A stretch of DNA of 64,000 bases. It comes from Kineosporia succinea. GTDB taxonomy: Bacteria > Actinomycetota > Actinomycetes > Actinomycetales > Kineosporiaceae. The DNA lies in assembly GCF_030811555.1 (NCBI RefSeq), contig NZ_JAUSQZ010000001.1, forward strand, positions 1,984,001-2,048,000. Reading direction: 5' to 3'. This document shows, piece by piece, positions 8,158 through 47,600 of the stretch. The notes below the pieces were generated by a model that saw only the letters and a list, made by a program, of their open reading frames with translations, did no database searches and had not been told where the DNA came from. The translations under genes and the position numbers were made by a program. Numbering within the stretch: position 1 is the stretch's first letter; the number at the start of each line of letters is the position of its first letter.

Positions 8158-8245
8158 GGTTTCACGGTTCGTGGGTTCCACGGGTTCGTGGGCTCCACGG
8201 GTTCGCGGGTTCGCGGGTTTCCACGGGTTCGCGGGTTTCCACGGC
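8158..8245 (+). repeat. Degenerate tandem repeat of about 18 bp upstream of the ABC exporter
   Basis: Units resembling cacgggttcgcgggtttc follow one another, some shortened, in the stretch between the divergent oxidoreductase and ABC genes. The reading frame of the ABC gene stays open through it (repeating Arg-Gly-Phe), but the likely TTG start at 8272 leaves it untranslated. Confidence 0.75.
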
Positions 8246-8271
8246 ATCTGGGCAGGACGGGAGGGGCGACG

Positions 8272-10773
8272 TTGAGCGAGCGGACGGCAAGGACGGGTGC
8301 GACGGCGCCCGGTGACTCCGGTTCCCCCGGGGGGCCGGACGGCCCGAGTGGTTCCGGCGGCCCCGACGGCTCTGGTCGGGCTGGTGGATCCGGTGGTCCT
8401 CGTGCTGCCGGTTCCGGTGCTGGTTCCGGTGCGCCGGGGATGCGGGGGCACGGGCACGCGGGGCGGCATCCGGGAGCCACCGTGTCCGAGGCGGCCGCGG
8501 GGCTGAAGGCCGCGGCGGCCGACCGCGCGCTGCTGCGACGGGTGGTGGCACTGTTCCGTCCCTACCGGCGGCGGGTCACCTATGTGGCGCTGCTGATCCT
8601 GGTCACGGCCGGGCTCGGGGTGGCGAATCCGCTGCTGATCCGCGAGATCTTCGACAAGGCGCTGTTCGTCAGCGGTGGGCCCGACCTGCCGTTGCTGTTC
8701 ACGCTGAGCGCGATCATGGTCGCGGTGCCGGCGGCGTCGAGCGCCCTCGGGGTGGTGCAGGCCTACCAGACCAATTTCGTCGGCCAGCAGATCATGCGTG
8801 ACCTGCGCGGAAAGCTGTTCAGCCACCTGCAGAGCCTGTCGCTGCGGTTCTTCACGGGCACGCGCACGGGCGAGATCCAGAGCCGGCTCCAGAACGACGT
8901 GGGCGGCCTGCAGACCGTCATCACCGACACCGCCAGCACTCTGCTGAGCAACAGCGTCATCCTGATCTCCACGCTGATCGCGATGTTCGTACTGAGCTGG
9001 CAGCTCACGCTGCTGTCGCTGGTCATGCTGCCGCTGTTCGTCTGGCTCACCGGCCGGGTGGGGCGCATCCGCCGTGACATCACCGGCCGCACCCAGACGG
9101 CCCTGGCCGAGATGAGCGCGATCACCCAGGAGTCGCTGTCGGTCTCCGGGGTCCTGCTGTCCAAGGTGTTCGGCCGGCAGGACCGCGACGCCGACCGCTA
9201 CCACCGCCAGAACGAGAAGCTCGCCGACCTGCAGGTGCGGCAGCAGATCGTGGGCCGGGCGTTCTTCGCGGTGGTCTCCACGTTCTTCTCGATCACGCCG
9301 GTGCTGGTGTATCTGGTGGCCGGGCTGCAGCTGTCCAACGGCAGTGGGCCGAGCGCGGGCACGATCATCGCCTTCACCACGCTGCAGTCGCGGCTGTTCA
9401 TGCCGATCGGCCAGGTGCTGCAGACCAGCACCGAGGTGTCGAGCAGCCTGGCCCTGTTCTCGCGGGTGTTCGGCTACCTCGACCTGCGGGCGGAGATCGT
9501 CGAGCCGGAACGTCCGGTGCGCCTCGACCCCGTCGACGTGAAGGGCGAGATCCAACTCGACGACGTGTGGTTCAGCTACATCGAAGACGAGCCCGTTTCC
9601 CCCTCGCCCGCCATCCCGCACGACGACGCCAGCTCCCTCGGCAACGCCGCCTCGCACAACGGCGCCACCCCGCACGGCCGCACGACTTCCCCCAGCAGCG
9701 CTGCCTCCCCCAGCAGCGCTGCCTCCCACGACCACGCTGTCTCCCACGACCACGCTGTCTCCCACGACCACGCTGCCTCCCACGACCGCGCCACTTCTCA
9801 CGACCGCGCTGCCTCCCACGACCCCGCCACTTCTCACGACCACGCTGCCTCCCACGACCGCGTTACTTCTCACAACGGCGCCACCTCCCACAACGGCGCC
9901 ACCTCGCTCGACCGCGCCACCTCTGGGGGCCCGGGCGACCCGATGTTCCCCATCGAGACCGCCACGGTGCCCTCCTCCCCCGACGGCGCCGTGACCGACA
10001 CCTCCGGCACCCGGCGCTGGGCCCTGCGCGGGCTCGACCTCACGGTGCTGCCGGGGCAACTCGCGGCGGTGGTCGGGGCCAGCGGAGCGGGCAAGACCAC
10101 GCTGAGCTACCTGATCCCACGGTTGTACGACGTCACTTCGGGCGCGGTACGGCTCGACGGCCACGACGTACGCACGCTGTCGCTCGACTCGCTGGCCGGG
10201 GCGATCGGCATGGTCACCCAGGAGACGTACCTCTTCCACGCCACGGTGCGCGACAACCTGGCCTATGCCCGTCCCGAGGCCACCGACGACGAGATCGAGG
10301 CCGCGGCCCGGGCCGCGTTCATCCACGACCGCATCCTCGAACTGGAACACGGCTACGACACGGTGGTGGGTGAGCGGGGATACCGGCTGTCCGGGGGCGA
10401 GAAACAGCGGCTGGCCATTGCCCGGGTCCTGCTGAAAGACCCTCGCGTGCTCCTGCTCGACGAGGCCACCAGCGCCCTCGACACGGTCAGCGAGCGCCGG
10501 GTGCAGGCCGCCCTCGAACCCCTGATGGCGGGCCGCACCACGATCGCGATCGCGCACCGGCTGAGCACGATCCGCTCGGCCGACGTCATCTTCGTGATGG
10601 ACGCCGGCCGCGTCGTCGAGAAGGGCAGCCACGAAACCCTTCTCGAGCTCGGTGGGGCCTACGCCGCACTGTACGAGCAGCAGTACGGCGGCGGCCTGGT
10701 CGAGGCCCGCACCGCCGACGGGTTCCAGCTCACCGACGGAAGGGTTCTGGGCACGGGCGACTCCGCGGTTTAA
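8272..10773 (+). CDS. ABC exporter (transmembrane + ATPase fusion) with a His/Asp repeat insertion
   Basis: This is a type IV (MsbA-like) half-transporter of 833 residues. After a Gly/Pro/Ser-rich cytoplasmic N-terminus of about 80 residues come six membrane helices with the intracellular-loop motif FFTGTRTGEIQSRL. The ATPase domain follows, with A-loop FSY (Tyr436), Walker A GASGAGKTT (about 602), Q-loop TQETYLF, signature LSGGEKQR, Walker B VLLLDEAT and the H-loop AHRLST. Between the A-loop and Walker A there are about 140 extra residues, including eleven S-H-D-x-A-x hexapeptides; ordinary members have about 20 here. TTG at 8272 was chosen for its GGGAGGGG ribosome binding site; the frame is open back to 8074. 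Substrate unknown, probably a lipid or drug. Confidence 0.92.
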   Translation: MSERTARTGATAPGDSGSPGGPDGPSGSGGPDGSGRAGGSGGPRAAGSGAGSGAPGMRGHGHAGRHPGATVSEAAAGLKAAAADRALLRRVVALFRPYRRRVTYVALLILVTAGLGVANPLLIREIFDKALFVSGGPDLPLLFTLSAIMVAVPAASSALGVVQAYQTNFVGQQIMRDLRGKLFSHLQSLSLRFFTGTRTGEIQSRLQNDVGGLQTVITDTASTLLSNSVILISTLIAMFVLSWQLTLLSLVMLPLFVWLTGRVGRIRRDITGRTQTALAEMSAITQESLSVSGVLLSKVFGRQDRDADRYHRQNEKLADLQVRQQIVGRAFFAVVSTFFSITPVLVYLVAGLQLSNGSGPSAGTIIAFTTLQSRLFMPIGQVLQTSTEVSSSLALFSRVFGYLDLRAEIVEPERPVRLDPVDVKGEIQLDDVWFSYIEDEPVSPSPAIPHDDASSLGNAASHNGATPHGRTTSPSSAASPSSAASHDHAVSHDHAVSHDHAASHDRATSHDRAASHDPATSHDHAASHDRVTSHNGATSHNGATSLDRATSGGPGDPMFPIETATVPSSPDGAVTDTSGTRRWALRGLDLTVLPGQLAAVVGASGAGKTTLSYLIPRLYDVTSGAVRLDGHDVRTLSLDSLAGAIGMVTQETYLFHATVRDNLAYARPEATDDEIEAAARAAFIHDRILELEHGYDTVVGERGYRLSGGEKQRLAIARVLLKDPRVLLLDEATSALDTVSERRVQAALEPLMAGRTTIAIAHRLSTIRSADVIFVMDAGRVVEKGSHETLLELGGAYAALYEQQYGGGLVEARTADGFQLTDGRVLGTGDSAV
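9724..9921 (+). repeat. 11 tandem 18-bp units inside the ABC ATPase domain
   Basis: Eleven in-phase units, first unit tcccacgaccacgctgtc, encode hexapeptides of the type SHDHAV, SHDRAT and SHNGAT (residues 485-550). More decayed units precede them from about 9640. Length polymorphism would keep the frame. Confidence 0.95.
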
Positions 10774-10876
10774 GCAGACGGCAGACACGCGCCCCGACGT
10801 GGCAGTTCCGACACACCACCGACGCACCACCGATGTTCAGCACACGGGCGGCCGGAAGCAGACGGCCGGGGACCGG

Positions 10877-11064
10877 CGCCCGGAAACAAGCAGCCAGAAG
10901 CAGACGACCGGCGACCAGCGCCCGGAAACAAGCAGCCAGAAGCAGACGACCGGCGACCAGCGCCCGGAAACAAGCAGCCAGAAGCAGACGACCGGCGACC
11001 AGCGCCCGGAAACAAGCAGCCAGAAGCAGACGACCGGCGACCAGCGCCCGGAAACAAGCAGCCG
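10877..11064. repeat. 42-bp minisatellite in the gap between convergent genes
   Basis: Units start at 10877, 10919, 10961, 11003 and (partial) 11045, almost identical, with a decayed copy just upstream. They fill most of the 344-bp gap between the ABC exporter stop (10773) and the oxygenase stop (11118). Long open frames cross the repeat on both strands, but these reflect its length being divisible by three. I see no gene or clear terminator in the rest of the gap. Confidence 0.93.
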
Positions 11065-11117
11065 GGGACGGACAGCCGGAAACCGGCGCGAGAGCGCGAC
11101 CGCCATCCCGCAGCAGG

Positions 11118-12239
11118 TCAACCGGCGAGGCGCTCCTGCACCCACTCGTGGAACTCCGAGATGTGGTGCTCGCTCGGCACCAGCACCCCGCCGGCCCGGT
11201 ACGCGCGCGACGACATGCCCGGCTGCGTGACCTCGCAGGCCTCGAAGTCCTGGCGGTTCACCCGGTCGAAAAGCTCCACCGAGCGGGTGAGGTCGGCCCC
11301 CGACTCGACCACGCCCGGCAGGTAGAGCCAGTCGCACTCGACGATCGTGCGGTCGACGGCGATCGGGAACATCCGGTGGAAGATGACGTGGTCGGGCACC
11401 AGATTGATGAAGACCTGGGGGCGCACGGTGATGGCGTAGTAGCGGCGGTCGTGGTCTTCGTCGACGCCCGGAATGCGTTCGTGGCCGCCGGAGCCGTCGA
11501 TGGTGAAGGCCGAGGCGTCTTCCCGGAACTCGGCGCCGTGCCCCACGAACGCCTGGGCCGCGTAGCCCCCGGCGAACTCGGGCAGCATCTCGGTGAGCTC
11601 GGGGTGGATCGTGGCGCAGTGGTAGCACTCCATGAAGTTCTCGATGATGAGCTTCCAGTTGGCCTTCACGTCGTAGGTGATGCGACGGCCGACGGACAGG
11701 TCGTCCACCTGCCAGCCCCCGATCAGCCCTTCACCGCCGAGCCTCTCGTCGGCGGCGGCGATCACGTCGGTCTCGAACGACGGGGGCTCGTCGGCCAGGC
11801 AGACCCAGGCGTAGCCCAGCCACTCGCGCAGGGCCACCTCGATCAGGCCGTACTCGCCGCGGTCGATGTCCTGCATCTTGGTCAGGTTCGGGGCGGCCAC
11901 GAGCTTGCCGTCGAGGCCGTAGGTCCAGGCGTGGTACATGCACTGGATGTTGCGGCGCAGCGCCCCGGACTCCTCCGAGCACAGCCGGGCCCCACGGTGA
12001 CGGCAGACATTGAGGAAGGCCCTCAGCTTCTGGTCGCGCCCCCGCACGACCAGCACGTTCTCGCGGCCGACCTGCTTGGTGACGAACGCTCCGGCGCCGG
12101 CGAGCTCGGCGGACCGCGCGACCGCGAACCACATCCGCTCGAAGATCTTCTCCTGCTCCAGCGCGAAGACGGCGGGATCGGCGTAGATGTTGCCGGGCAG
12201 CGTCGCCACGAGGCTCGGTGGCAGACTGACACTGGTCAT
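11118..12239 (-). CDS. Rieske non-heme iron oxygenase, probable glycine betaine demethylase subunit (GbcA-like)
   Basis: The 373-residue protein has the Rieske [2Fe-2S] ligands CRHRG and CMYHAW (C-x-H and C-x2-H) near residues 76-105. The mononuclear iron site is seen in NFMECYHCATIHPEL. It resembles the quaternary-amine demethylase group (glycine betaine, stachydrine, carnitine oxygenases). The neighbours betA, betB, a betaine importer and dimethylglycine dehydrogenase point to glycine betaine, giving dimethylglycine and formaldehyde. ATG at 12239 has GGAG six bases upstream. It is the third gene after a Rieske ferredoxin and an FAD reductase, which would feed it electrons. Substrate is inferred from context. 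Confidence 0.9.
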   Translation of the reverse strand: MTSVSLPPSLVATLPGNIYADPAVFALEQEKIFERMWFAVARSAELAGAGAFVTKQVGRENVLVVRGRDQKLRAFLNVCRHRGARLCSEESGALRRNIQCMYHAWTYGLDGKLVAAPNLTKMQDIDRGEYGLIEVALREWLGYAWVCLADEPPSFETDVIAAADERLGGEGLIGGWQVDDLSVGRRITYDVKANWKLIIENFMECYHCATIHPELTEMLPEFAGGYAAQAFVGHGAEFREDASAFTIDGSGGHERIPGVDEDHDRRYYAITVRPQVFINLVPDHVIFHRMFPIAVDRTIVECDWLYLPGVVESGADLTRSVELFDRVNRQDFEACEVTQPGMSSRAYRAGGVLVPSEHHISEFHEWVQERLAG

Positions 12240-12308
12240 GTCGACTCCTGTCGAGGGATCCGCGCAGCCCGAAAACCGCTGCCGGTCAGAAGAACAGAGC
12301 AGAACCGG

Positions 12309-13514
12309 TCAGGCGAGACGCTTCGCCAGCTCTCGCCGCCACCGGCCGAACACCTTGGGCTGACCGACGCCGAACACGCCGACCGGCTCCCCGTCACGGC
12401 GGTAGACGACGGTGAACGCCTCGCCGTCGAGATCGCCGTCCACCACCTCCACCGCATCGCCAGGCTGATGGTGCCCGGCGAACTGGAAATGCTTGCCGTA
12501 CTGCTCCGACCAGACGTACGGCACCCGCATCGCCGGGGCGACGGCCGGGGCCGGCACACCGATCAGCGCCGCCACCGCCTGGGCCGGATGTTGCGCCGCA
12601 TGGGTCCAATGCTCCTGCCGCATGATCTTTCCCGCGAAGGGATGGTGCATGGCCGTGCAGTCGCCGGTGGCCACGACCCCGTCCAGCGAGGTGCGGCCGG
12701 CCTCGTCCGTGAGCACACCCCCGTCGAGCTCCAGGCCCGACCCACCCAGCCACTCGACATTCGGTTCCGAACCGATGCCGACGACCACCACGTCCGCAAG
12801 CAGTGAACGCCCGTCGGCCAGCGAGACCGACCCGACCCGACCGGGTGAGCCCTCGCCGAGCGCCGAAACCCCCACCCCGGCGAGCACCCCGACGCCGTGC
12901 GAGGCGTGCAGCCGGCTCAGGGCCGCCCCCGCCTCGGCCCCCAAGGGCCCCGCCAGCAGCACCGGCGCCACCTCGACCAGCGTCACGTCGACCCCGAGAG
13001 TGACTGCCGTGGAGGCAATCTCGGCCCCGATGAACCCGCCGCCCACGATCACCAGCCGGGCTCCGGGCACCAGCTCGGCCTTCAGCGCCAGCGCATCGTC
13101 GAGAGTGCGCAGAGTGTGCACCCCGTCGAGCTTCACCCCCGGCAGCGAGCGTGCGCGTGCTCCGGTCGCGATCACCACGCCGTCGGCCCGCACACTGTCA
13201 CCGCCCTCGAGCTCGACCAGCCAGCCCGGACCCGCGCCGTCGGCCCGCAACCCGACCGCCCGCCGCCCCAGCTGCCAGTCCAGATCCAGCCCGGCGTCGG
13301 TGGGCAGCCCGAGCGCGATCTTCGACGGGTCCCACTCCCCGGCCAGGAACGCCTTCGACAGCGGCGGCCGGTCGTAGGGCTCGTGCTTCTCGTCTCCGAT
13401 CAGCACGATCCGGCCGGTGAACCCCAGCTCACGCAGGGCCCGCGCCGAGGACAGACCGGCCAGGCCGGTTCCGACCACGGCAACCACCGCCGGCGAGGGG
13501 TGCTCGGTTGTCAT
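12309..13514 (-). CDS. FAD-dependent ferredoxin reductase for the Rieske oxygenase
   Basis: The 401-residue flavoprotein carries two dinucleotide folds: VVGTGLAGLSSARALRELG near the N-terminus for FAD and VIVGGGFIGAEIAS near residue 150 for NAD(P)H. The GDEKHEPYDRPPLSKAFL segment and the VVATGDCTAM FAD motif are those of the BphA4/rubredoxin-reductase family. It should move electrons from NADH to the neighbouring Rieske ferredoxin. ATG at 13514 has GGAAAG close upstream and gives the normal length; a GTG at 13556 would add 14 residues without a good site. It lies between the ferredoxin and oxygenase genes on the same strand. Confidence 0.9.
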   Translation of the reverse strand: MTTEHPSPAVVAVVGTGLAGLSSARALRELGFTGRIVLIGDEKHEPYDRPPLSKAFLAGEWDPSKIALGLPTDAGLDLDWQLGRRAVGLRADGAGPGWLVELEGGDSVRADGVVIATGARARSLPGVKLDGVHTLRTLDDALALKAELVPGARLVIVGGGFIGAEIASTAVTLGVDVTLVEVAPVLLAGPLGAEAGAALSRLHASHGVGVLAGVGVSALGEGSPGRVGSVSLADGRSLLADVVVVGIGSEPNVEWLGGSGLELDGGVLTDEAGRTSLDGVVATGDCTAMHHPFAGKIMRQEHWTHAAQHPAQAVAALIGVPAPAVAPAMRVPYVWSEQYGKHFQFAGHHQPGDAVEVVDGDLDGEAFTVVYRRDGEPVGVFGVGQPKVFGRWRRELAKRLA

Positions 13515-13566
13515 CGCTTTCCGCTCCACGGCCGAGGACGAATCAGGACTGCTCACGCACCAGAGG

Positions 13567-13923
13567 CTAGGCGAGGGAGGCGGACACCGAGTCGGCCGGC
13601 CTCAGCGCCACGAACACCTCACCGTTCTCGATCAGCACGGCGTGCGTGCGCACCGGCACCCGCGCGGGCGGACCGCTCGGCATCCCGGTGCGCAGATCGA
13701 AGCAGCTGGCGTGCAGCGGACACTCGACCGCGCAGTCCGCCTCCTCGACGTACCCGTCGGCGAGCGACGCGTCTTGATGGGTGCAGGTGTCGTCGACGGC
13801 GTAGTGCCGCCCGCCCACGTTGAACACCGCTAACGGAACACCGTCGGGCCCCTGCTCGACCCGCAGTGCCTCACCCTCGGGGACATCCCCGACCGCACAG
13901 ACCCGAATCACGGCACGCCTCAT
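13567..13923 (-). CDS. Rieske [2Fe-2S] ferredoxin (bacterial dioxygenase ferredoxin / NirD-like)
   Basis: The 118-residue protein is a stand-alone Rieske fold. CTHQDASL and CPLHASCFDL supply the two Cys and two His ligands, and the spacing matches dioxygenase ferredoxins. The N-terminus RVCAVGDVPEGEALRVE and the VRTHAVLIENGEVFVAL end are typical. As the first gene of the leftward group it should carry electrons from the FAD reductase to the oxygenase. The ATG at 13923 gives the family length; the frame stays open to 14028 but the extra residues look non-coding. It is divergent from the IclR gene. Confidence 0.92.
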   Translation of the reverse strand: MRRAVIRVCAVGDVPEGEALRVEQGPDGVPLAVFNVGGRHYAVDDTCTHQDASLADGYVEEADCAVECPLHASCFDLRTGMPSGPPARVPVRTHAVLIENGEVFVALRPADSVSASLA

Positions 13924-13962
13924 CTCAAGACGAAGGACCTGGAGGGAGAAGGTGGTGCGCTT

Positions 13963-13979
13963 GTTGCGTCTTGCACAAC
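13963..13979 (+). promoter_or_regulatory. Copy A of a 17-bp motif in betaine-gene promoters
   Basis: GTTGCGTCTTGCACAAC lies between the divergent ferredoxin and IclR genes. It matches related sites at 18550-18566 and 24865-24881 in 13-14 of 17 positions. A related sequence, GTGCGATATGCAAC, follows at about 13985. It is a candidate operator for the adjacent IclR regulator. Confidence 0.6.
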
Positions 13980-14056
13980 ACGAAGTGCGATATGCAACAG
14001 CGTGCGGCCGATGGATACCGCGCGTCAAGACATAACGGGGTTACTGGTGGGCAGCT

Positions 14057-14854
14057 ATGGTTTCAGCCATGGCGGAGACGACCCGCGCCGGAGGCGACGC
14101 CTCACAGGTGCAGTCCGTCGACCGGGCACTCATGGTGCTGGACCTGCTCGCCCGGCGGGGCGAGCTGGGGGTGACCGAACTCGCCACCGAACTCGCCGTG
14201 CACAAGTCCACGGCCTTCCGGCTCGTCACCGCGCTGGAACGCCGCGACCTGGTGCAGCAGGTCGGCGATCGCGGCAAGTACCGCCTCGGCCTGGGTGTCC
14301 TGCGTCTGGCGGCGGCCACCACGGGCCGGCTCGAGGTCAGCCGGGAGGGCCGCGAGGTGTGCGAGCGCCTGGCCCACGAGCTGGGCGAGACCGTCAACAT
14401 CGCGATCATGGACGACGACAGCGCCGTCAACGTGCTGCAGGAGTACGGCAACGCGTCGGTGATGACCCGCAACTGGATCGGGCGGCGCACCCCGCTGCAC
14501 GCCACCTCGAGCGGCAAGGTGCTGCTGGCCTTCGCCGACGGGTCGGTGCGCAAGCACTTCCTGTCGATGCCGCTCGAGCCGCTCACCGAGAACACCCTCA
14601 GCGACCCGGACGAGCTGCTCACCGAACTGGTCGAGGTGACCGGCCGGGGCTGGGCCTCGACCTACGAGGAACTCGAGATCGGCCTGACCGCGGTGGCCGC
14701 CCCGGTGCGGGACGGCAGTGGTCAGGTGATCGCGGCCGTGAGTGCGTCGGGGCCGTCGTTCCGGCTGACCCGCGACCGGTTCGAGCCGGTGGCCGCCCGG
14801 CTCGTCGACGGCGCGGCCGAGATCAGCTCACGCCTGGGGTATTTCGGCGCGTAG
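14057..14854 (+). CDS. IclR-family regulator of the betaine catabolic genes (inferred)
   Basis: The winged-helix N-terminus (SVDRALMVLDLLARRGELGV, then TELAVHKSTAFRLVTAL) is followed by an IclR effector domain (GRRTPLHATSSGKVLLAF, STYEELEIGLTAVAAPV). The 265 residues fit the family. It is divergent from the Rieske demethylase genes, and a shared 17-bp motif occurs in its own promoter, between betB and betA, and before the dimethylglycine dehydrogenase gene. That makes it the probable regulator of the group. Whether it represses or activates, and its ligand, are unknown. ATG at 14057 has GGTGGG upstream; the in-frame ATG at 14069 is possible. Confidence 0.9.
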   Translation: MVSAMAETTRAGGDASQVQSVDRALMVLDLLARRGELGVTELATELAVHKSTAFRLVTALERRDLVQQVGDRGKYRLGLGVLRLAAATTGRLEVSREGREVCERLAHELGETVNIAIMDDDSAVNVLQEYGNASVMTRNWIGRRTPLHATSSGKVLLAFADGSVRKHFLSMPLEPLTENTLSDPDELLTELVEVTGRGWASTYEELEIGLTAVAAPVRDGSGQVIAAVSASGPSFRLTRDRFEPVAARLVDGAAEISSRLGYFGA

Positions 14855-14860
14855 ACGAAC

Positions 14861-14894: not shown

Positions 14895-14899
14895 CGGCA

Positions 14900-15531: not shown

Positions 15532-16248
15532 TCAGCGCCAGTTGTCGTTGCCCGAGGACCCGTAGCCCTGCTGGCCGTTCTCACCCTGCTGACCGTTCTG
15601 ACCCGGCTGACCGTACTGGCCCGACTGGTCGCCGTAGCCGGACTGCTGGCCGTAGCCCTGATTCTCGCCATACCCCTGGTTCTGGCCGTAACCCGGCTGC
15701 TGGCCGTACTGCTGGTCCGGCTGGCCGTACCCCGGCTGCTGCTGACCGTAGCCGGACTGCTGACCGTAGCCCGCCTGCTGCCCGTATCCAGGCTGCTGAC
15801 CGTAACCGGCCTGCTGACCATACCCCGGCTGGCCGTAACCGCCCTGCCCGTAACCACCTTCAGCACCCTTGGGGTTCGGACCGTACTGGTTCGAGCCCGG
15901 CTCACTGTCGAGCACCATGAAGACGAGCAGCACCAGGCCGCCGAACGGCACGATCGAGATCAGCCACCACCAGCCGGAGCGGCCGGTGTCGTGCAGACGG
16001 CGCACCCCGACGGCCAGGTTCGGCACCAGGAAGCCGAAGACCGCGACGACGTACCAGAGCACGAGCAGGGCCGACGACAGGGCATTGTCACCGAGGATGG
16101 CGACGAGGATTCCCACCACGATCAGGCTGGCGAACACCCCGAGCACGTAGGCCAGGTACCACCACCAGTACTCGGACCGCCGGGCCCGGCCCTGGAACGT
16201 GGCGTACTTCTGCGTCAGGACGATTCTGACGGCGTCTTGGATCGACAC
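15532..16248 (-). CDS. DUF805 membrane protein 2 with a long Gly-Tyr-Gln repeat tail
   Basis: Residues 1 to about 125 form a normal DUF805 domain ([53 protein letters not shown]). The remaining 110 or so residues are a low-complexity tail of [15 protein letters not shown] and related units ending in a polar NDNWR. Such Tyr/Gln/Gly-rich tails are disordered and can self-associate in other proteins; any such role here is inference. GTG at 16248 has GGAG seven bases upstream. The function of the DUF805 domain is unknown. It is flanked by two paralogues without the long tail. Confidence 0.9.
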
Positions 16249-16489
16249 GCGGGTTCTCCATGATGTCGGTGGTCAGGGCGTACAGGTGGTCAGGGCGTAC
16301 GCGTGATCTGGACGTGCGGATGGTCAGGGCCGCGCGAACCTAGCAACCCTTCACCCGGTGCCGACACCCTGACAGCGGCGAACGGAGCAGCACGGCTGCT
16401 CTGCGTCGACAGGCTGTGCACCGGCAGTGCCGGTGCACAGCCTCCTCCAGATCGTCGTGTCAGCACCCCACCACAGCCGTCACCAGCCG

Positions 16490-37763: not shown

Positions 37764-38240
37764 ATGACCGCACCGATGAGCACGGACTTCCCCACGGGCA
37801 CCGGTGGATCCTACGAACGGGCAGGTCAGAGGCGTCGCACCCTGGGGCAGCTGATCCGTTTCGCCGGAGTCGGAGTGGTCAGCACCCTGGCCTACTCGCT
37901 GCTCTACCTGATCCTGCGAACTTTCCTGAACTCCTTCGCCGCGAACACCCTGGCCCTCCTGATCACCGCCGTGGCCAACACCGCAGCCAACCGGAGGGTC
38001 ACGTTCGGGGTCAGGGGCAACCAGGGCCTGGCCGGCGACCACGCCGTCGGGCTGCTGGCCTTCGCCGTCGGGCTCGGCCTGACCAACGGCTCGCTCTTCC
38101 TCGTGCACTGGGCCGGCGTCGAGGCGCACTGGGTCGAGGTGGTGGTGCTGACGGTGGCCAACGCCGTGTCGACGGTGCTGCGGTTCATCGCCCTGCGACT
38201 ACGTCTCCCCCGCACGGCCGGGTCCCACGCGCTGCCGTAG
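37764..38240 (+). CDS. GtrA-family membrane protein
   Basis: The 158-residue protein has four predicted membrane helices in the GtrA arrangement: GQLIRFAGVGVVSTLAYSLL, then an AANTLALLITAVANTAANRR stretch with the family's N-R-x-x-T-F (NRRVTF), and two further helices to residue 150. GtrA proteins are thought to flip polyprenyl-linked sugars for cell-surface glycans. No glycosyltransferase gene is adjacent, so the sugar is unknown. It is divergent from the LytTR gene. No clear ribosome binding site precedes ATG 37764. Confidence 0.88.
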   Translation: MTAPMSTDFPTGTGGSYERAGQRRRTLGQLIRFAGVGVVSTLAYSLLYLILRTFLNSFAANTLALLITAVANTAANRRVTFGVRGNQGLAGDHAVGLLAFAVGLGLTNGSLFLVHWAGVEAHWVEVVVLTVANAVSTVLRFIALRLRLPRTAGSHALP

Positions 38241-38326
38241 AGCACGCGCTGCCGTGGGGCAGGCACTGCCGTGGAGCGCGTCGATGCCGTGGAGCACACC
38301 GGCGCGGGGTCCCGGACGGACTTCCG

Positions 38327-40462: not shown

Positions 40463-40469
40463 GCCGCTC

Positions 40470-40722: not shown

Positions 40723-40727
40723 CTGAC

Positions 40728-40829
40728 GTTGCCGGCTTAATTGCCGTGCCCGCCCGGTCCGACTCCTCCCCCCCGAGCCGGACCGGCCAGACGGCCCCCG
40801 CTCCCCCCCAGCGGGGGCCGTCGCCTTTT
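40728..40829 (+). ncRNA. 6C small RNA (actinobacterial, B11-like)
   Basis: Two hairpins each expose a run of seven cytosines in the loop, the defining trait of 6C RNA. Stem 1 pairs CCGGTCCG (40754-40761) with CGGACCGG (40779-40786). Stem 2 pairs ACGGCCCCCGC (40791-40801) with GCGGGGGCCGT (40811-40821) and is followed by CGCCTTTT, so it doubles as the terminator. The place between the HAD phosphatase and ssd genes is the same as for B11 in Mycobacterium tuberculosis. C-rich loops of this RNA are thought to pair with G-rich ribosome binding sites. The 5' end is estimated from the promoter. Confidence 0.92.
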
Positions 40830-41180
40830 GCCCTCGTCGATCGACGGCTTGAGGACGCTTCGGGAGGCTCGGGCGGCAGCCTCACCTCTCCCTTCCGGCT
40901 GGTTCCCTGGCCCGGTGCCATTCGTGATCACGAAAAGGCTCATGGGGGCGGACTTGTGGGCATTCGGATTCCTTCGACCGGTTCTTTCCCCAGGGCGCGC
41001 TTTCTGACGGGTAGGGCCTGCGACCGGGGAGCCTGACACCGGAGGGTTCCGCCAGGCCGGGCCTTTACGCCGAGCCACCTTTTCCGGACCGGCTTTCCAC
41101 AGGCAGGCACGACGGTGGGTTTGTCCACAGCGCCGGTCGGGTGAGCGCGGGGTCGGGGGTTGCTGGCGGAGCGTGGCGGC
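40830..41180. other. 351-bp region between 6C RNA and ssd
   Basis: No convincing gene. One TTGTCCACA (41121-41129) matches a DnaA box and a TTTCCACA lies near 41094, but no cluster is present. The promoter of the ssd-tad operon should be here. Confidence 0.5.
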
Positions 41181-42269
41181 ATGGTCTCTGCTGCGCGTTC
41201 GACGGTCCCTGCTGCGCGTCCGATGGTCTCCGCTGCGCCTTCGGCGGTCTCTGCTGCGCGTTCACCGGTTCTGCCTCGGGTCCGGGGGCCTCGCGGCTGT
41301 CTGCCTCTCCCGGCTCCAGGTCTCCCGGCTCCAGGTCTCCCGGCTCCAGGTCTACGGGCTTCCGGTCCTCGTGCCTCCGGTCTTCCCACCTCTGGCCCGC
41401 TGGCCTCCGTCGGGCAGCGTCCCGGTGGCCGGGCCGGGGCAGGTTCGGTGCCCGAATCTGCCCAGCTGCGCAAGTCCGTCGCCGCGGCCGGTGCGGCCCA
41501 CGTGGTGCGGCTACCTCAGGCCGGGCACCGGCCACTGGTGGTCCCCACCGGGCGGTGGCAGGGCCTGGTCGTGGGTGTGGTCGGTGGTTGCGGCGGGGCC
41601 GGGGCCAGCGTTCTCGCGGCCGCACTGGCCCGAACGGCCGCATCGCCGCAGTCCCGGGCCGGTGTCACCCTGCTCGCCGAGATCGACCAGCTCGGCGGTG
41701 GGCTCGACCTGCTGCTCGGCGCCGAAGACGAACCCGGCCTGCGCTGGCCCGATCTCGCCTCGGCCCGCGGGCGCCTGCTGCCCGGCAGTCTCTCCGGCAC
41801 ACTGCCCGTGATCGACGGGGTGCACGTGCTGGCCGCTGTCCGCTCCGGACCGGTCACCGGGCTCTCCGCAGCCGCCGTGCAGGCCGTGCTCGACGCCGCC
41901 CGCTCCGAGTACGGCCTCGTCGTGCTCGACCTGCCGCGCCATCTGGACGAGGCCGCCAGAGCCGCTGTGCGGGCCGCGCACGTGTGTCTGGTGGTCGTTC
42001 CCGCCGATGTACGGGCGACGGCGGCAGCGCGGCGTGTGGTGGCGTCTCTGCGGCCGGAGGTGGACGACGTCCGGGTCGTGGTGCGGGAGCCAGGGCCGGC
42101 CGGGATCGCGGCGGACGGCATCTGCGCCGCTCTCGACCTGCCCCTGGCCGGGCTGCTGCCGACCGAGCCCCGGCTCCGTCTGGCCCTCGACCGGGGTGAG
42201 CCACCGGGGTTACGGCCCCGGGGGCCGCTGGCCGCGTTCTGCCGGGAGCTGCTCGAGGAACTCCGGTGA
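41181..42269 (+). CDS. ssd: Septum site-determining / CpaE-like protein of the Tad locus
   Basis: The 362-residue protein is a MinD/CpaE-type P-loop ATPase relative. Its nucleotide loop reads GVVGGCGGAGASVLAAALA, without the lysines of the usual KGGxGKT motif, as in mycobacterial Ssd. AAHVVRLPQ just before it matches the end of a pseudo-receiver domain. The first 90 residues are instead four 21-bp and three 15-bp tandem repeats (VSAARST, PAPGL types). Later LDLPRHLDEAARAAVRAA and VVVPADVRATAAARRVVAS fit the ATPase fold. ATG at 41181 has GGAG nine bases upstream. It leads the tad genes and overlaps tadA. Confidence 0.85.
   Translation: MVSAARSTVPAARPMVSAAPSAVSAARSPVLPRVRGPRGCLPLPAPGLPAPGLPAPGLRASGPRASGLPTSGPLASVGQRPGGRAGAGSVPESAQLRKSVAAAGAAHVVRLPQAGHRPLVVPTGRWQGLVVGVVGGCGGAGASVLAAALARTAASPQSRAGVTLLAEIDQLGGGLDLLLGAEDEPGLRWPDLASARGRLLPGSLSGTLPVIDGVHVLAAVRSGPVTGLSAAAVQAVLDAARSEYGLVVLDLPRHLDEAARAAVRAAHVCLVVVPADVRATAAARRVVASLRPEVDDVRVVVREPGPAGIAADGICAALDLPLAGLLPTEPRLRLALDRGEPPGLRPRGPLAAFCRELLEELR
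41183..41266 (+). repeat. Four 21-bp units at the start of ssd
   Basis: Units of ggtctctgctgcgcgttcga-type sequence encode heptapeptides such as VSAARST. A 15-bp repeat of three units follows at 41309-41353 (ccggctccaggtctc). Confidence 0.85.
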
Positions 42270-43462
42270 ACCGCCCCGGCGACGGTGAGACCGCCCTGGT
42301 CTCCCGGTTACGGGGCGGCCTCGCCGGTTCCGGGCGCCCCGACCGGCGCGAGCTGGCGGCATTGGTCGCCGCCACCTCGGCCGGCCTCGGGCAGGTGCTC
42401 GGGCAGGACGACGTGCTGGCCGCCACCGAACGGGTCAGCGCGGAACTCTGGGGCCTCGGCCCGCTGCAGCCCTTCCTCGAACTGCCGGGCGTCACCGACG
42501 TACTGGTCAACGGGCCGGGCGAGATCTGGGTCGACCGGGGCTCGGGCCTCACCCGGGTGGCCTGTCCGGCCGCGCTGTCCGCCGAGACGCAGGTGCGGGC
42601 CCTCGCGACCCGGCTCGCGTCCACCGCCGGGCGACGACTCGACGACGCCGCTCCCTACGCCGACGCCCGGCTCGACGGCGGAATCCGGCTCCACGCGGTC
42701 ATTCCCCCGGTCTCACCGGGCGGCACGCTGATCTCGCTGCGGGTGCTGCAGCAAGAACCCCTCACGCTCGAGACGCTGGTGTCGACCGGCTCGATGCCCG
42801 CCCGCTGGGCCGAGGTGCTGCGGGCGATGATCGCGGCCCGGGCGGCGTTCCTGGTCAGCGGGGGCACGGGCGCGGGCAAGACCACCCTCCTGGCCTCGTT
42901 GCTGTCGCTCGTCCCCGCCCGTGAGCGGATCGTGCTGGTCGAAGACGTCGGCGAGCTCCGCCCCGCTCACCCCCATCTGGTGCGGCTCGAGGCCCGGCAC
43001 GCGAATGTCGAGGGAGCAGGCGCGGTTCCGCTCGAGGTCCTGGTGCGCCAGGCCCTGCGGATGCGCCCCGACCGGGTGGTGGTCGGAGAGTGCCGGGGTG
43101 CCGAGGTCCGCGATCTGCTGGCCGCCCTGAACACCGGGCACGCGGGCGGATGCGGCACGGTGCACGCCAACGCCCCGGCCGACGTCCCGGCCCGGCTGGA
43201 GGCTCTGGGGGCCCTGGCCGGGCTCACGGTCGACGCGGTGCGGGCCCAGGCGGCCGCCGCGCTCGACGCCGTGGTGCACGTGGAGCGGCGCGGAAACCGG
43301 CGCCAGGTCACCCAGATCGCGGTCGCCCGACGCGGCGAGCGCGGTGAACTGACGATGCTGCCGGCGCTGACTGCCGATCCTCGCGATCCGTCGTCCGACG
43401 GATCGCTGGGCGCCGGCTGGCCCGACCTGGCCGCCCGTCTGGACTGCGAAGGACGAGCATGA
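42266..43462 (+). CDS. tadA: Tad pilus assembly ATPase
   Basis: TadA/CpaF powers Flp pilus assembly at the cytoplasmic membrane. The 398 residues include the N-terminal GLGPLQPFLELPGVTDVLVN region, Walker A SGGTGAGKTTLLASLLS (about 195), the Asp box VLVEDVGELRP, Walker B MRPDRVVVGECRG and the HAGGCGTVHANAP His box. GTG at 42266 overlaps the ssd stop. The next gene, tadB, overlaps its end (ATGA), so the operon is tightly coupled. Confidence 0.94.
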   Translation: MNRPGDGETALVSRLRGGLAGSGRPDRRELAALVAATSAGLGQVLGQDDVLAATERVSAELWGLGPLQPFLELPGVTDVLVNGPGEIWVDRGSGLTRVACPAALSAETQVRALATRLASTAGRRLDDAAPYADARLDGGIRLHAVIPPVSPGGTLISLRVLQQEPLTLETLVSTGSMPARWAEVLRAMIAARAAFLVSGGTGAGKTTLLASLLSLVPARERIVLVEDVGELRPAHPHLVRLEARHANVEGAGAVPLEVLVRQALRMRPDRVVVGECRGAEVRDLLAALNTGHAGGCGTVHANAPADVPARLEALGALAGLTVDAVRAQAAAALDAVVHVERRGNRRQVTQIAVARRGERGELTMLPALTADPRDPSSDGSLGAGWPDLAARLDCEGRA

Positions 43463-44061
43463 GCGCGCGCAGGCTGTCACCGGAACCATTGTCCGGCCCT
43501 CGTTTCCGGCTGGCACGGGATGACGCCGCCCAGCTCTGCGGGCGGGTCTCGGCTCTGTCCCGGGCCGGGGTCCCGCCCGGCCGGACCTGGGAGGTGCTGG
43601 CCGCGGGCCGAGGGCCGGACGCCCGGGTGGCGACCACCGTGGCCGGGATGATGGCCGTCGGCGGCACCACGGCCGAAGGGTTGCGGCTGGCCGCGTCCGG
43701 GTGCGACGGGCCCGGGGTGGAGGCGCTGGAGTGGCTCGCCGCGACGGCCGAGGTGGTCCGGAGATCGGGAGCCCCGGCGGCAGCGATCTTCGACGGTGTC
43801 GGGTCCGGCCTGCTGGCCCAGATCGCGGAGTCCGACGAGCGCGACGTCGCTCTGTCCGGCCCTCGTACCACCGCGAAAGTACTGGCGACGCTTCCGGTCA
43901 TCGGTCTCCTGCTGGGTGCCGCGCTCGGGGTGAACACGCTCGGGGTGCTGCTCGGCAGTGCGCCCGGACTGGCCTGTCTGGTGGGCGGGGCCCTGTTCTG
44001 GTGGGCGGGCCGGCGCTGGACCGCCCAGCTCGTGCGGTCGGCCTCCCGGGAGAACCCATGA
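43459..44061 (+). CDS. tadB: Tad pilus inner-membrane protein TadB-like
   Basis: The 200-residue protein is a short form of the type II secretion F domain. A cytoplasmic part (ALSRAGVPPGRTWEVLAAG) resembles the GspF helical bundle, and two membrane helices follow (TTAKVLATLPVIGLLLGAAL, and GLACLVGGALFWWAG). Full-size TadB proteins have about 300 residues, so this is the trimmed actinobacterial type. Start and stop overlap tadA and tadC by four bases each. Confidence 0.85.
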   Translation: MSARRLSPEPLSGPRFRLARDDAAQLCGRVSALSRAGVPPGRTWEVLAAGRGPDARVATTVAGMMAVGGTTAEGLRLAASGCDGPGVEALEWLAATAEVVRRSGAPAAAIFDGVGSGLLAQIAESDERDVALSGPRTTAKVLATLPVIGLLLGAALGVNTLGVLLGSAPGLACLVGGALFWWAGRRWTAQLVRSASRENP

Positions 44062-44555
44062 GCACCCGCCTGTCCCGGGCCCTGGTGCCGTACCGGCGCT
44101 CGGCCGCACCGATCCCGCGACCGGCCACCACGGTCATGCCGGGCCCACTCGTGCTCGATCTGATCGCAGCCCTGATGGAGAGCGGAGCCCCACCCACGAG
44201 CGCCCTGCACGGTGCCGGAGAAGTGCTGGCCGAGCTGGGCGACCCCCGCGGTGAGAAGCTGCTGCGGCTGGGCGATCTCATCAACGATCCGCTCCCCGGG
44301 CCGGACGGCGCCGCAGCCGACAGCACCACGGCGGCGCTGGCCGAGGCACTCACCCTGGCGGCCCGTTCCGGCCTGCCGCCGTCGGCCCTGATCCGCCGGG
44401 CGGCGGTGGAGGAGCGACGCCGCCTGGCCGCCACCCGGGCCGTGGCCGTGCACCGGCTCGAGGTGCTGATCGTGATCCCCGGAGCCGTCTGCCTGCTGCC
44501 CGCCTTCGTCCTGCTCGGCATCATGCCGCTGGTGATCAGGATGGTGGCGGGATGA
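44058..44555 (+). CDS. tadC: Tad pilus inner-membrane protein TadC-like
   Basis: The 165-residue protein matches the C-terminal half of a GspF domain: LVLDLIAALMESGAPPTSAL, then ALTLAARSGLPPSALIRRAA, and a hydrophobic end (HRLEVLIVIPGAVCLLPAFV, then LLGIMPLVIRM). It probably pairs with TadB in the assembly platform. ATG at 44058 overlaps the tadB stop (ATGA). A 153-bp gap separates it from the pilin gene. Confidence 0.85.
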   Translation: MSTRLSRALVPYRRSAAPIPRPATTVMPGPLVLDLIAALMESGAPPTSALHGAGEVLAELGDPRGEKLLRLGDLINDPLPGPDGAAADSTTAALAEALTLAARSGLPPSALIRRAAVEERRRLAATRAVAVHRLEVLIVIPGAVCLLPAFVLLGIMPLVIRMVAG

Positions 44556-44708
44556 CTTTCGTGCTGTCCACAGCCGGTAGGAATCCGATTCCGTCCACAG
44601 GCCGGGCTTTTGCGGGGTGGTGCCAGGTGTTCACGGGCGAGTCTGGATGTGGCCGGGAAGAGGGCGGCCGACCCGGCCGGGGGCACCGGCCACGGGGAGA
44701 GGAACACG

Positions 44709-44957
44709 ATGCGCATTCGTCACGGAGTCTCAGCAGTTCTGCCGGTCCGACGCGGGATCTCGGGTCTTCACCGTCAGTGGAGGCAGGTGGTGGCCACGGC
44801 GCGCTCGGCGGGCGAGGCGGGTGCGAGCACGGCGGAGTACGCCATGACCACACTCGCGGCCTGCGGCTTCGCCGGGGTGCTGCTGGTGATCCTGCGCAGC
44901 AGCCCGGTGAAGAGCATGCTGCTCGGGATCATCCAGAAGGCGCTGAGCCTCGCATGA
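44709..44957 (+). CDS. Flp-type pilin precursor (DUF4244)
   Basis: The 82-residue protein has a basic N-terminus, then GEAGASTAEYAMTTLAACGF and a long hydrophobic segment ending in a short LLGIIQKALSLA tail. This is the actinobacterial DUF4244/Flp pilin pattern, in which a prepilin peptidase cuts before the hydrophobic stretch. It should form the pilus shaft. GAGAGGAA lies a few bases before ATG 44709. Its stop overlaps the tadE start (ATGA). Confidence 0.88.
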   Translation: MRIRHGVSAVLPVRRGISGLHRQWRQVVATARSAGEAGASTAEYAMTTLAACGFAGVLLVILRSSPVKSMLLGIIQKALSLA

Positions 44958-45826
44958 TCCGGCCGGACGGCCGGGGCGGCACGGCGCCGACCGCCCCGGT
45001 CCGCCCGGCGAGCCTGGCCTGGCCGGGACGCTCGACGTGGTCGGAAGGCTCGTCGGGGTGGGCTTACTCATGCCACGCGGCTGGGTCGGGACGCTCGGCG
45101 GGGTTGGCGGGGTTGGCGGGGTTGGCATGGTCGGCGACGTTGGCATGGTCGGCGACGTTGGCATGGTCGGCGACGTTGGCATGGTCGGCGACGTTGGCAT
45201 GGTCGGCGACGTTGGCATGGTCGGCGACGTTGGCATGGTCGGCGACGTTGGCACGGTCGATGGGGTTGGCATGGTCGACGGGGTTGGCATGGTCGACGGG
45301 GTTGGCATGGTCGGGCGTGACCAGGCGCCGGGTGGCACCTTTCGGGTCTCGGCCCGGTCCGGCAGCGCTCCCCGCGTCGTGGCGAGACCCGTCGACGCTC
45401 ACCACGTCCCGGTGCGGTCGGGTGGTTCTCGCCGAGTCGGCGCGCGGCCAGATATCGCTTCCTCAGTCTCGGCGCGAACAGGCCGGGCGCGGCGAGCGCG
45501 GTTCGGTCACGGCCGAGTTCGCGCTCCTGATACCGGCGTTCATCCTGCTCATGGCCGCGGTCCTCAGCATCCTGCTGGCCGGCGTGGCCCAACTGCAGTG
45601 CATCGACGCGGCGCGCGCCGGAGCCCGGGCAGCGGCCCGGCACGACGATCCGCGTGGGGCGGCCCAGGCGGTCGGGCCGAGAGGGGCCGTGGTGGAGGCG
45701 TCCGAGAGGGGTGATCGGGTCACGGTGAGGGTCTCGGCCGGGATACGTCTGATGCTGCCGGGGCGTCCAAAGACCGAGGTGGCGTCCGAGAGCACCGCCC
45801 AGGTGGAGCCGGAGGTGGCACCGTGA
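44954..45826 (+). CDS. TadE-like minor pilin with an N-terminal hexapeptide repeat
   Basis: The last 110 residues are a TadE protein: GERGSVTAEFALLIPAFILL forms the pilin-like membrane helix, followed by ILLAGVAQLQCIDAARAGAR and a short outer domain. The first 180 residues are unusual, with eleven LAWSAT-type hexapeptides at about 57-122. The ATG at 44954 is fixed by overlap with the pilin stop, and the repeat is in frame from there. A downstream start close to residue 170 would give a normal TadE, so use of the repeat part is not certain. Its stop overlaps the next gene (GTGA). Confidence 0.82.
   Translation: MIRPDGRGGTAPTAPVRPASLAWPGRSTWSEGSSGWAYSCHAAGSGRSAGLAGLAGLAWSATLAWSATLAWSATLAWSATLAWSATLAWSATLAWSATLARSMGLAWSTGLAWSTGLAWSGVTRRRVAPFGSRPGPAALPASWRDPSTLTTSRCGRVVLAESARGQISLPQSRREQAGRGERGSVTAEFALLIPAFILLMAAVLSILLAGVAQLQCIDAARAGARAAARHDDPRGAAQAVGPRGAVVEASERGDRVTVRVSAGIRLMLPGRPKTEVASESTAQVEPEVAP
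45122..45319 (+). repeat. 11 tandem 18-bp units in the tadE-like gene
   Basis: Units of ttggcatggtcggcgacg, the first seven nearly identical, encode LAWSAT. Later units vary (ttggcatggtcgacgggg). Shorter 9-bp ttggcgggg units precede them. Confidence 0.95.
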
Positions 45827-46641
45827 TCACGAACTGGTTGTCGAGAACGTTGAGCGGTACGCCTGTCTCGGTCAGAATCCACTCGTCCGCAGCGGATCCT
45901 CGCCCCGGGAGCCCGCACCCGACCGGGGGCGTCCGCCCGACCGCGAGCGTCCACCCGACCCGGGGCGTCCACCCGACCCGGGGCGTCCACCCGACCCGGG
46001 GCGTCCACCCGACCCGGGGCGTCCACCCGACCCGGGGCGTCCACCCGACCCGGGGCGTCCACCCGACCCGGGGCGTCCACCCGACCGGGAGCGTCCACCC
46101 GACCGGGAGCGTCCACCCGGCAGGAAACCACCCGGCCAGGAACACCGGCGCAGCCGGCAGCGTCCGGACCGGTCCTTCCGGCGTCGCCCGCAGCCGTTCT
46201 GCCGGAGACGTGGGTCTCTTCCGGGGCGAGGAGTCGCCTGCCGGTGACGGCTCTTCGCGCGATCGAGGCGCCAGCACCGTGATGGCGCTCGGCCTGATCG
46301 TCGCGACGTGTCTCCTGATGTCGGCGGTGGTCACTCTCGGCGTCGCGGTCGCAGCCCGGCACCGGGCCGCGGCTGCCGCCGACCTCGCGGCCCTCGCAGC
46401 TGTCGACTCGCCGCAGGGGTGTTCGGCGGCCGGATCCGTCGCGGAGATCAACGGGGCCCGGCTCGAGGAGTGCACACCCCAGGGAAATGGCACGGTGCTG
46501 GTGACCGTGATGGTCGAGGTGCCGGGACTGGCCGCAGATGTCCGCGGCCGGGCCCGAGCAGGCCCCGGACCTGCACCGATACCCACCACAACCAGTTGGA
46601 CGAGCGTAAGAACCACAAGGGGGACGGGCACTTCTCAGTGA
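45823..46641 (+). CDS. TadE/TadG-like protein with an N-terminal VHPTRG repeat
   Basis: From about residue 150 the protein matches the small Tad-locus secreted protein group (Rv3654c-like): RGASTVMALGLIVATCLLMS membrane helix, then AARHRAAAAADLAALAAVDS and a CSAAGSVAEINGARLEEC pair of Cys residues. Residues 31-102 are twelve hexapeptides, mostly VHPTRG. GTG at 45823 overlaps the tadE stop. It ends the tad operon. As with its neighbour, a start after the repeat is possible but would lack the coupling. Confidence 0.82.
   Translation: MITNWLSRTLSGTPVSVRIHSSAADPRPGSPHPTGGVRPTASVHPTRGVHPTRGVHPTRGVHPTRGVHPTRGVHPTRGVHPTRGVHPTGSVHPTGSVHPAGNHPARNTGAAGSVRTGPSGVARSRSAGDVGLFRGEESPAGDGSSRDRGASTVMALGLIVATCLLMSAVVTLGVAVAARHRAAAAADLAALAAVDSPQGCSAAGSVAEINGARLEECTPQGNGTVLVTVMVEVPGLAADVRGRARAGPGPAPIPTTTSWTSVRTTRGTGTSQ
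45913..46128 (+). repeat. 12 tandem 18-bp units in the tadG-like gene
   Basis: Units of gtccacccgacccggggc begin at 45949 and repeat seven times almost exactly, with variant units on both sides. They encode VHPTRG. Confidence 0.95.
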
Positions 46642-46652
46642 GAGGAGGAAAC

Positions 46653-46703
46653 ATGTCAGCCAAATTGGTGACACGCAGTGCGCCGTGTAGGCCATTGGAG
46701 TGA
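46653..46703 (+). CDS. Possible 16-residue leader peptide upstream of bldG
   Basis: AGGAGG lies four bases before ATG 46653, one of the best ribosome binding sites in the window. The frame is [16 protein letters not shown], then TGA at 46701-46703. No longer protein follows. It sits 100 bp before bldG. It may be a regulatory leader peptide, a small protein, or the remnant of the start of a lost gene. Confidence 0.45.
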
Positions 46704-46803
46704 CCGTCAGATGATTGAATGCCGGAGGCGCGCCCCCATGGCGAGGGCTGAACAGAAGATTCGAGCACCGCGATACGGGCACAGGACTTCCCGGGGAGGC
46801 GAT

Positions 46804-47277
46804 GTGGAGCTCACGGTGGCGACACGGCGCGAAGGTGTCCAGACGGTCATCAGCGTGTCCGGAGAGATCGACGTATATACGGCTCCCACTCTGAGGGAAC
46901 GTCTCAACGAGCTGGTCTCGGAGGGCGAGTACCACCTGGTGGTGGACATGGGCGGGGTCGACTTCCTCGACTCGACGGGGCTCGGGGTCCTGGTCGGCGG
47001 GCTGAAGCGAGCGCGCTCGCACGAGGGCTCACTGCAGCTGGTGTGCGACCAGGAGAAGATTCTCAAGGTCTTCCGGATCACCGGGCTGACCAAGGTTTTC
47101 CCGATCCACTCCTCGCTCGGCGAGGCTCTGGCGGGTCCGCCGAACGCCGGGGCGACCACCGAATCTTCGCCCGAGCAGCCACGTCCGGACGAGCACGTCA
47201 CGATCTCGCTCGACAGCACCCAGGAGAAGACGCTCGACGGCACCGCGAACGGGGAGTCCTTCAGAGGCACCCCATAA
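46804..47277 (+). CDS. bldG: Anti-sigma factor antagonist BldG
   Basis: The STAS-domain protein closely follows Streptomyces Bld[41 protein letters not shown] and [18 protein letters not shown]. Ser57 in the DSTGLG loop is the residue phosphorylated by the partner kinase. It frees sigma factors by binding their anti-sigma factors and controls development and stress in relatives. The 157 residues include a C-terminal polar extension of about 45 beyond the usual 113. GTG at 46804 has GGGGAGG four bases upstream. The kinase gene follows. Confidence 0.95.
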
Positions 47278-47312
47278 CCGGGACCGGGCCGGAACCGCCC
47301 GAGTCCGGTGCA

Positions 47313-47600
47313 GGCCACCACGGTGCAACCGGCCACCACGGGATACCCGGTGGCCACGGGACACCGGATGGCCACGGGTCACCCGGTGGGCACGAGACAC
47401 CCGGTGGGCACCGGACGACGGGCGGCGACGGAACGCCGGGCGGCCACGGGACGGCCGAGCGTGGCGAGACGACGGAGCACGACAGAGCGACCGAACACGA
47501 CGAGACGACCGAGCACGACAGAGCAGCCGAACACGACGAGACGACCGAGCACGACAGAGCAGCCGAACACGACGAGACGACCGGACACGACGACCCGGCC
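47313..47600 (+). repeat. 16 tandem 18-bp units between bldG and its kinase gene
   Basis: Sixteen units fill the gap without a break. The first eight are of the ggtggccacgggacaccg type and the last eight of the gaacacgacgagacgacc type. In the frame of the kinase gene they encode hexapeptides such as GGHGTP and EHDETT, leading directly into it. Confidence 0.93.

Follow-up and report, generated by a model that had tools for sequence, protein, structure and literature searches.

Tandem-repeat arrays of Kineosporia succinea share a 15- to 18-bp period mode and probably stem from a general process of short tandem duplication

A 64-kb stretch of the chromosome of the soil bacterium Kineosporia succinea (positions 1,984,001 to 2,048,000 of the 8,065,021-bp single-contig genome; here called the window) carries a series of tandem-repeat arrays in its spacers and genes. 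We consider these arrays to be probably minisatellites produced by one general mutational process, namely, tandem duplication of about 13 to 21 bp, slippage of the duplicate into an array, and blurring of the array by point mutation. On our best reading, microhomology-assisted short duplication operates widely among high-GC actinobacteria, and in K. succinea the arrays grow strongly or are strongly retained. A sequence-only reading of the window had reported arrays with an 18-bp period at five loci and ascribed them to a common expansion mechanism acting in this lineage. All five arrays were recovered by Tandem Repeats Finder (TRF) to within about 30 bp, and the recurrence of the period stood, while the heading under which it was reported, that an 18-bp repeat unit recurs, was misleading, since the units differ. 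A common process is likely, as the periods peak near 18 bp beyond what the reading frame imposes; however, the peak lies at 15 to 18 bp, with 15 bp as common as 18 bp (27 and 26 of 147 arrays). Thus, the mode is broad, spanning 15 to 18 bp with 18 bp at its upper edge, and within genes it is sharpened to 15 and 18 bp by the reading frame.

The proposed process would begin with a stretch of about 13 to 21 bp (mostly 15 to 18 bp), often bounded by a direct repeat of 3 to 9 bp, being duplicated in tandem, presumably by replication slippage or template switching. Further slippage would then multiply the duplicated stretch into an array, which point mutation would gradually blur. Weak constraint on the spacers, linkers, and N-terminal extensions that they occupy may allow the arrays to persist, and in coding sequence the reading frame would filter them to multiples of 3.

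Arrays were defined as tracts of at least 60 bp and at least three copies (TRF) and were counted in 80 systematic 20-kb stretches amounting to 1.6 Mb, or 20% of the genome. This sample contained 147 arrays, compared with one in 1.6 Mb of order-5 Markov sequence and none after local triplet shuffling. The most common periods were 15 bp (27 arrays) and 18 bp (26 arrays), followed by 12 bp (11), 17 bp (10), 9 bp (9), and 21 bp (8). The outcome that the sequence-only reading had named as damaging to it, a lack of excess at 18 bp, was therefore not what we found in this fifth of the genome, and the claim was not refuted. Array counts per stretch were mildly uneven along the chromosome (mean, 1.84; variance, 2.61). 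The window had an even higher density, with 12 arrays or 18.8 per 100 kb, about twice that of the genome sample [P(at least 12 arrays) = 0.018; P(at least five period-18 arrays) = 0.004; neither value is corrected for the choice of this window on account of its arrays]. The strand GC skew of the arrays seemed raised at first (0.237 versus 0.105 to 0.152), a difference that disappeared when same-length units were compared (0.249 versus 0.18 to 0.33). Some GC-rich words were enriched in the units, for example, GGCCTG (12 occurrences versus 2.7 expected).

A simple gene model was used to separate coding from non-coding arrays. Among 159 arrays from the sample and the window together, 72 were flanked by non-coding sequence (35 of these with a period divisible by 3), 65 were internal to genes, 19 lay at gene edges, and 3 lay between different frames. 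An exact-repeat count independent of TRF also placed the non-coding maximum at 15 to 18 bp (19, 15, 19, and 24 cases), with a drop to 7 at 19 bp. When non-coding duplications of at least 1.9 copies were counted with one period per place, 49 fell at 15 to 18 bp and 18 at 19 to 22 bp. Non-coding periods that were not multiples of 3 behaved in the same way, with 20 cases at 7, 8, 10, and 11 bp, 32 at 13, 14, 16, and 17 bp, 11 at 19, 20, 22, and 23 bp, and 3 at 25, 26, 28, and 29 bp. Since the mode also appears at these periods, the reading frame alone does not explain it. Coding duplications were concentrated at 15 bp (29) and 18 bp (25), with 5 at 21 bp.

The same sizes were found in what may be the earliest stage of the process. 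Clean two-copy duplications, that is, exact duplications of at least 13 bp with low identity in the adjoining units and no internal periodicity, were found 27 times in the 1.6-Mb sample (N letters were left out of all duplication counts), and three shuffles of it gave 0, 1, and 1. The search extended to 120 bp, and every one of the 27 measured 13 to 21 bp, a range whose lower edge is partly a detection limit, since exact duplications shorter than 13 bp are indistinguishable from chance, and whose upper part is somewhat affected by the requirement for exactness, which disfavors longer units. Their lengths were 13 bp (2), 14 bp (1), 15 bp (7), 16 bp (4), 17 bp (3), 18 bp (6), 19 bp (1), and 21 bp (3). 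With mismatches allowed, longer two-copy cases occurred but were rarer per length. Short direct-repeat pairs, the potential primers of slippage, were about equally frequent at all spacings from 6 to 40 bp, save for the 3-periodicity of codons, and thus opportunity does not set the duplication length. The homology at the junctions of the 27 duplications averaged 3.30 bp compared with 0.90 bp in a random-placement null, and it reached at least 4 bp in 10 of them (null, 3.7%; P = 3 × 10^-7). Junction homology above the null favors homology-assisted duplication.

The window arrays consist of head-to-tail units of roughly 10 to 100 bp, as minisatellites do, and their consensus units, as given by TRF, differ from array to array. 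A single shared unit was considered and found to be unsupported; besides the differing consensuses, the array in the tadE gene, the one array used as a query, was matched at only three other places of the genome, each time in part and more weakly (68 to 89% over 42 to 112 bp). Three 18-bp arrays are coding, all on the forward strand. An array of 12.6 copies at 9698 to 9923 encodes (HDxAxS) hexapeptides in the linker of an ABC exporter, between its membrane domain (residues 104 to 378) and its ATP-binding domain (residues 585 to 734; Pfam). In its best segment the exporter is 82 to 88% identical to the exporters of Kineosporia rhizophila, K. mesophila, and K. babensis. The exporter's repeat is rich in His and Asp, and metal binding is a candidate idea for it, yet no congener showed a related array. 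The other two arrays are (LAWSAT)n in a TadE-like protein (45095 to 45314, 12.2 copies) and (HPTRGV)n in a TadE/G-like protein of the Pfam family Tad (45916 to 46119, 11.3 copies). Each of the two frames runs open from a start codon overlapping the stop codon before it (for TadE, the ATG at 44954, which overlaps the stop of flp), and an in-frame ATG is similarly placed in two congeners, G004 and G005. These open frames suggest that the arrays probably encode N-terminal extensions.

The fifth array, 16 units in an 18-bp register at 47316 to 47603, stands between the gene of a STAS-domain protein, named bldG in the sequence-only reading, and that of an HATPase_c_2 protein, its kinase. TRF split this array into two blocks (47313 to 47593), and printing it in the 18-bp register gave the 16 units and revealed their drift along the array. 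The kinase GTG at 47604 follows the array and is common to three of five congeners (G002, G003, and G005), and so the array was judged to be probably a spacer; the next in-frame ATG, GTG, or TTG is 561 bp further upstream, within bldG. Thus, the earlier statement that the product is a hexapeptide array applies to the exporter, TadE, and Tad arrays, while the bldG-kinase array is more likely a spacer. Two further arrays belong to the exporter region: a degenerate array with 17-, 18-, and 26-bp periods at 8158 to 8244, upstream of the exporter's likely TTG start (inferred at 8272), and a 42-bp array at 10851 to 11063 (5.1 copies, 97% matches) in the spacer that follows the exporter gene.

We compared the window with five draft Kineosporia assemblies (G001 to G005; drafts may lose long arrays). 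For 17 arrays this gave 85 rows, of which 17 lacked anchors and 2 were not colinear, none of these at the six main arrays (8158, 9698, 10851, 45095, 45916, and 47313). These six gave 30 congener intervals, with the tadE and tadG arrays sharing one interval in each congener; 25 intervals were scorable and 5 were too short. With the best of 60 shuffles as the cutoff for relatedness, none of the 25 scorable intervals contained a related array. Instead, congeners had arrays of their own or short gaps at these places. At the exporter-leader spacer (8158), G003 had an unrelated 9-bp array and G004 a weak 32-bp array (1.9 copies); at the exporter linker (9698), G002 had an unrelated 15-bp array and G003 and G005 had about 65 bp; at the 10851 spacer, G001 had an unrelated 17-bp array and G003 a 15-bp gap; and the tadE/tadG region of G002 had an unrelated 24-bp array. 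The distance from the bldG stop to the kinase core was 338 nt in K. succinea, 35 nt in four of the five congeners, and 53 nt in G004. A 10-bp piece of the short spacer, in its G003 form, matched 8 of 10 positions at each end of the K. succinea array (counted by eye).

The same size range was found outside the genus, in comparison samples that were small (20 to 612 kb). Array densities per 100 kb were 9.2 in the K. succinea sample, 5.5 in the five congeners (22 arrays in 400 kb; 3.3 to 7.9 singly), 6.2 in other Kineosporiaceae genera, 5.0 and 2.5 in the genomes G054 and G048, and 2.0 in other high-GC contigs (12 in 612 kb). The highest density, 21.1 per 100 kb (38 arrays in 180 kb) or about twice that of K. 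succinea, was found in G073, a single 7,497,934-bp contig from another order than Kineosporia, which may be Frankia alni. G073 had the same mode, with coding maxima at 15 bp (11) and 18 bp (16) and, in non-coding sequence, 16 cases at 15 to 18 bp versus 2 at 19 to 22 bp. Clean two-copy duplications, searched to 60 bp in G073 and the other comparison genomes, occurred at 61 per Mb in G073 (11 in 180 kb), 16.9 per Mb in K. succinea (27), 18.8 per Mb in other Kineosporiaceae genera (3), and 10.4 per Mb in other high-GC contigs (8; this set holds 457 N), and there were none in 660 kb of lower-GC loci. Ten of the 11 G073 duplications measured 13 to 21 bp and one measured 27 bp; of the 11 from other high-GC contigs and Kineosporiaceae genera pooled, 9 measured 13 to 18 bp and the rest 25 and 31 bp. 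Junction homology of at least 4 bp was present in 6 of 11 (P = 0.012) and 4 of 11 (P = 0.0017) of these sets, respectively. The size range therefore looks general in high-GC actinobacteria. A mechanism particular to the lineage, as first proposed, does not agree with the mode and higher density of G073, with the similar sizes in the pooled high-GC genomes, or with the absence of clean duplications from 400 kb of the congeners.

Several results weigh against the process that we favor or limit what it explains. It leaves both the confinement of births to 13 to 21 bp and the array density of K. succinea unaccounted for. Simple slippage predicts that short periods are the commonest, whereas non-coding arrays of at least three copies numbered 26 at 5 to 11 bp and 50 at 12 to 18 bp. 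The five congeners, although they bear arrays, had no clean two-copy duplication in 400 kb (L195 to L214), where the K. succinea rate predicts 6.75 (P = 0.0012), and the K. succinea rate was not clearly above that of the pooled other high-GC contigs and Kineosporiaceae genera (11 in 932 kb; P = 0.40). The birth rate thus does not account for array density, and it may be array growth or retention, rather than birth, that differs between genomes. Junction homology can be the remnant of a partial third copy, and 6 of the 27 clean duplications had none, so that a homology-free route is possible. When the ends of the bldG-kinase array were compared with the ancestral spacer by shuffling, only the left end against G003 alone stood out (9 of 500 shuffles), and the other seven tests were not notable. 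Two relatedness scores were marginally above the best shuffle (41306 in G004, 26 versus 24; 16268 in G005, 22 versus 20). Finally, the gene model placed the TadE and Tad arrays among the non-coding ones despite their open frames, and the non-coding set consequently holds some coding arrays.

Other explanations were weighed against the same data. If reading frame and protein selection alone were at work, hexapeptide arrays would be kept for their function and 18 bp would simply be six codons. All 65 gene-internal arrays do have periods that are multiples of 3, and some coding arrays are related across species: the array in the tail of a DUF805 protein in G001 and G004, that in the topoisomerase tail in G003 and G005, and the array at 63534 to 63608 in G003. 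However, non-coding periods not divisible by 3 show the mode too, and nothing related to the ABC exporter, TadE, and Tad arrays was seen in the congener intervals that could be scored, which makes this explanation quite improbable. The relatedness of the DUF805 and topoisomerase tails across species instead indicates that conserved low-complexity coding tails are a separate class, and the DUF805 array is probably such a kept tail. Assembly artefacts, the other concern raised by the sequence-only reading, are scarcely credible given a single-contig genome, units that drift along an array, the frame kept by 112 of 115 coding duplications, and draft congeners that bear arrays of their own.

A length-setting enzymatic step beyond simple slippage could be the joining of a 5' flap left in place or of a staggered break once its ends are filled in, both of which are models of duplication. 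The confinement of all 27 clean duplications to 13 to 21 bp in the face of level direct-repeat opportunity would suit such a step, as would the six junctions lacking homology. Nevertheless, we regard it as unlikely, because the flap-nuclease domain of Pol I retains its acidic motifs in K. succinea and G073 (judged by eye, with motif roles as generally understood), 13 of the 14 genomes examined have Ku, including some that are poor in arrays, and the enrichment of junction homology fits slippage at least as well. A broader version is possible, though doubtful: some replication or repair step in high-GC actinobacteria would limit newborn duplications to about 13 to 21 bp, as a molecular ruler, and from these seeds hundreds of arrays would grow in K. 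succinea and G073 and continually reshape protein N-termini, linkers, and spacers. Under another proposal, the lineage lost a known repair function (NucS, ExoVII, or SbcCD) and its duplication rate rose as a result, and an array density four to five times that of other high-GC contigs would agree with it. We consider it very improbable, since NucS is present in all six Kineosporia genomes and G073 and the ExoVII large subunit and SbcD have matches over the cutoff in K. succinea and G073. The genes for NucS, the ExoVII large subunit, SbcD, Ku, and the Pol I flap domain are thus all present in K. succinea; presence is no proof of activity, and a silent loss of repair activity would be compatible with it. 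Three 5'-3' exonuclease N-domain matches were seen in K. succinea, Pol I and two shorter frames (genome positions 369878 to 370387, 5193121 to 5193657, and 8036574 to 8037080), and three or four in each of the other five Kineosporia genomes.

The favored process of short duplication and slippage has parallels in known systems. Yeast rad27 mutants, defective in a flap nuclease, accumulate short tandem duplications with short junction repeats; in K. succinea, by contrast, the flap nuclease domains are present with their acidic motifs kept. Bacterial minisatellites and variable-number tandem repeats likewise consist of head-to-tail units of tens of base pairs in spacers and genes, with coding units in multiples of 3, but the K. 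succinea arrays differ in their density, their unrelated units, and their 15- to 18-bp mode. In the available portion of a study of de novo tandem duplications in Burkholderia penA, 3 of 11 duplications were bordered by direct repeats of 3 to 8 nt and ascribed to replication slippage, while the other 8 involved a different sequence pair, and the authors saw in them a fundamental bacterial mechanism (Yi et al. 2014, PMC4169377). Those units measured 9 to 60 bp under selection, compared with 13 to 21 bp for the exact two-copy duplications of K. succinea. Tandem repeats have also been counted in four Frankia strains, with a table in the supplement (PMC4447401, available portion), and array counts for that genus may already be in print. 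In the open-licence literature, we found no paper with both Kineosporia and "tandem repeat," and, among the matches listed, no title or beginning of an abstract on a bacterial 15- to 18-bp repeat mode or on actinobacterial array lengths. Tandem duplication is a standard source of new spacer and protein sequence, and a genome whose exact two-copy duplications, at about 17 per Mb, vary so little in length would make a size-setting step testable. Annotators should also be aware that a hexapeptide extension in a genome of this kind can be a recent by-product and not a domain.

The 21-bp and 15-bp repeats that the sequence-only reading had listed together with the 42-bp array are, like it, present (41181 to 41274, 4.4 copies, and 41306 to 41367, 3.2 copies), and they share one spacer with a gap of 721 to 740 bp, compared with 179 to 470 bp in congeners. 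Three arrays were absent from that list: an 18/36-bp array in the DUF805 protein gene on the reverse strand (15566 to 15847), a 17-bp array of 3.7 copies at the edge of a coding segment (16268 to 16330), and a 17-bp array of 4.2 copies with non-coding flanks (38226 to 38297). The last lies in a gap of 129 to 151 bp, and the corresponding gaps of 22 to 201 bp in the five congeners had no array. A Lys/Thr-rich repeat tail with 66-, 30-, and 15-bp periods was seen at the end of the topoisomerase I gene (61039 to 61190). No Rfam family matched over any array in the window at gathering thresholds, and the single hit in the window, outside the arrays, was a 6C RNA (RF01066) at 40753 to 40826, upstream of the tad gene cluster, with 50.4 bits against a cutoff of 47.

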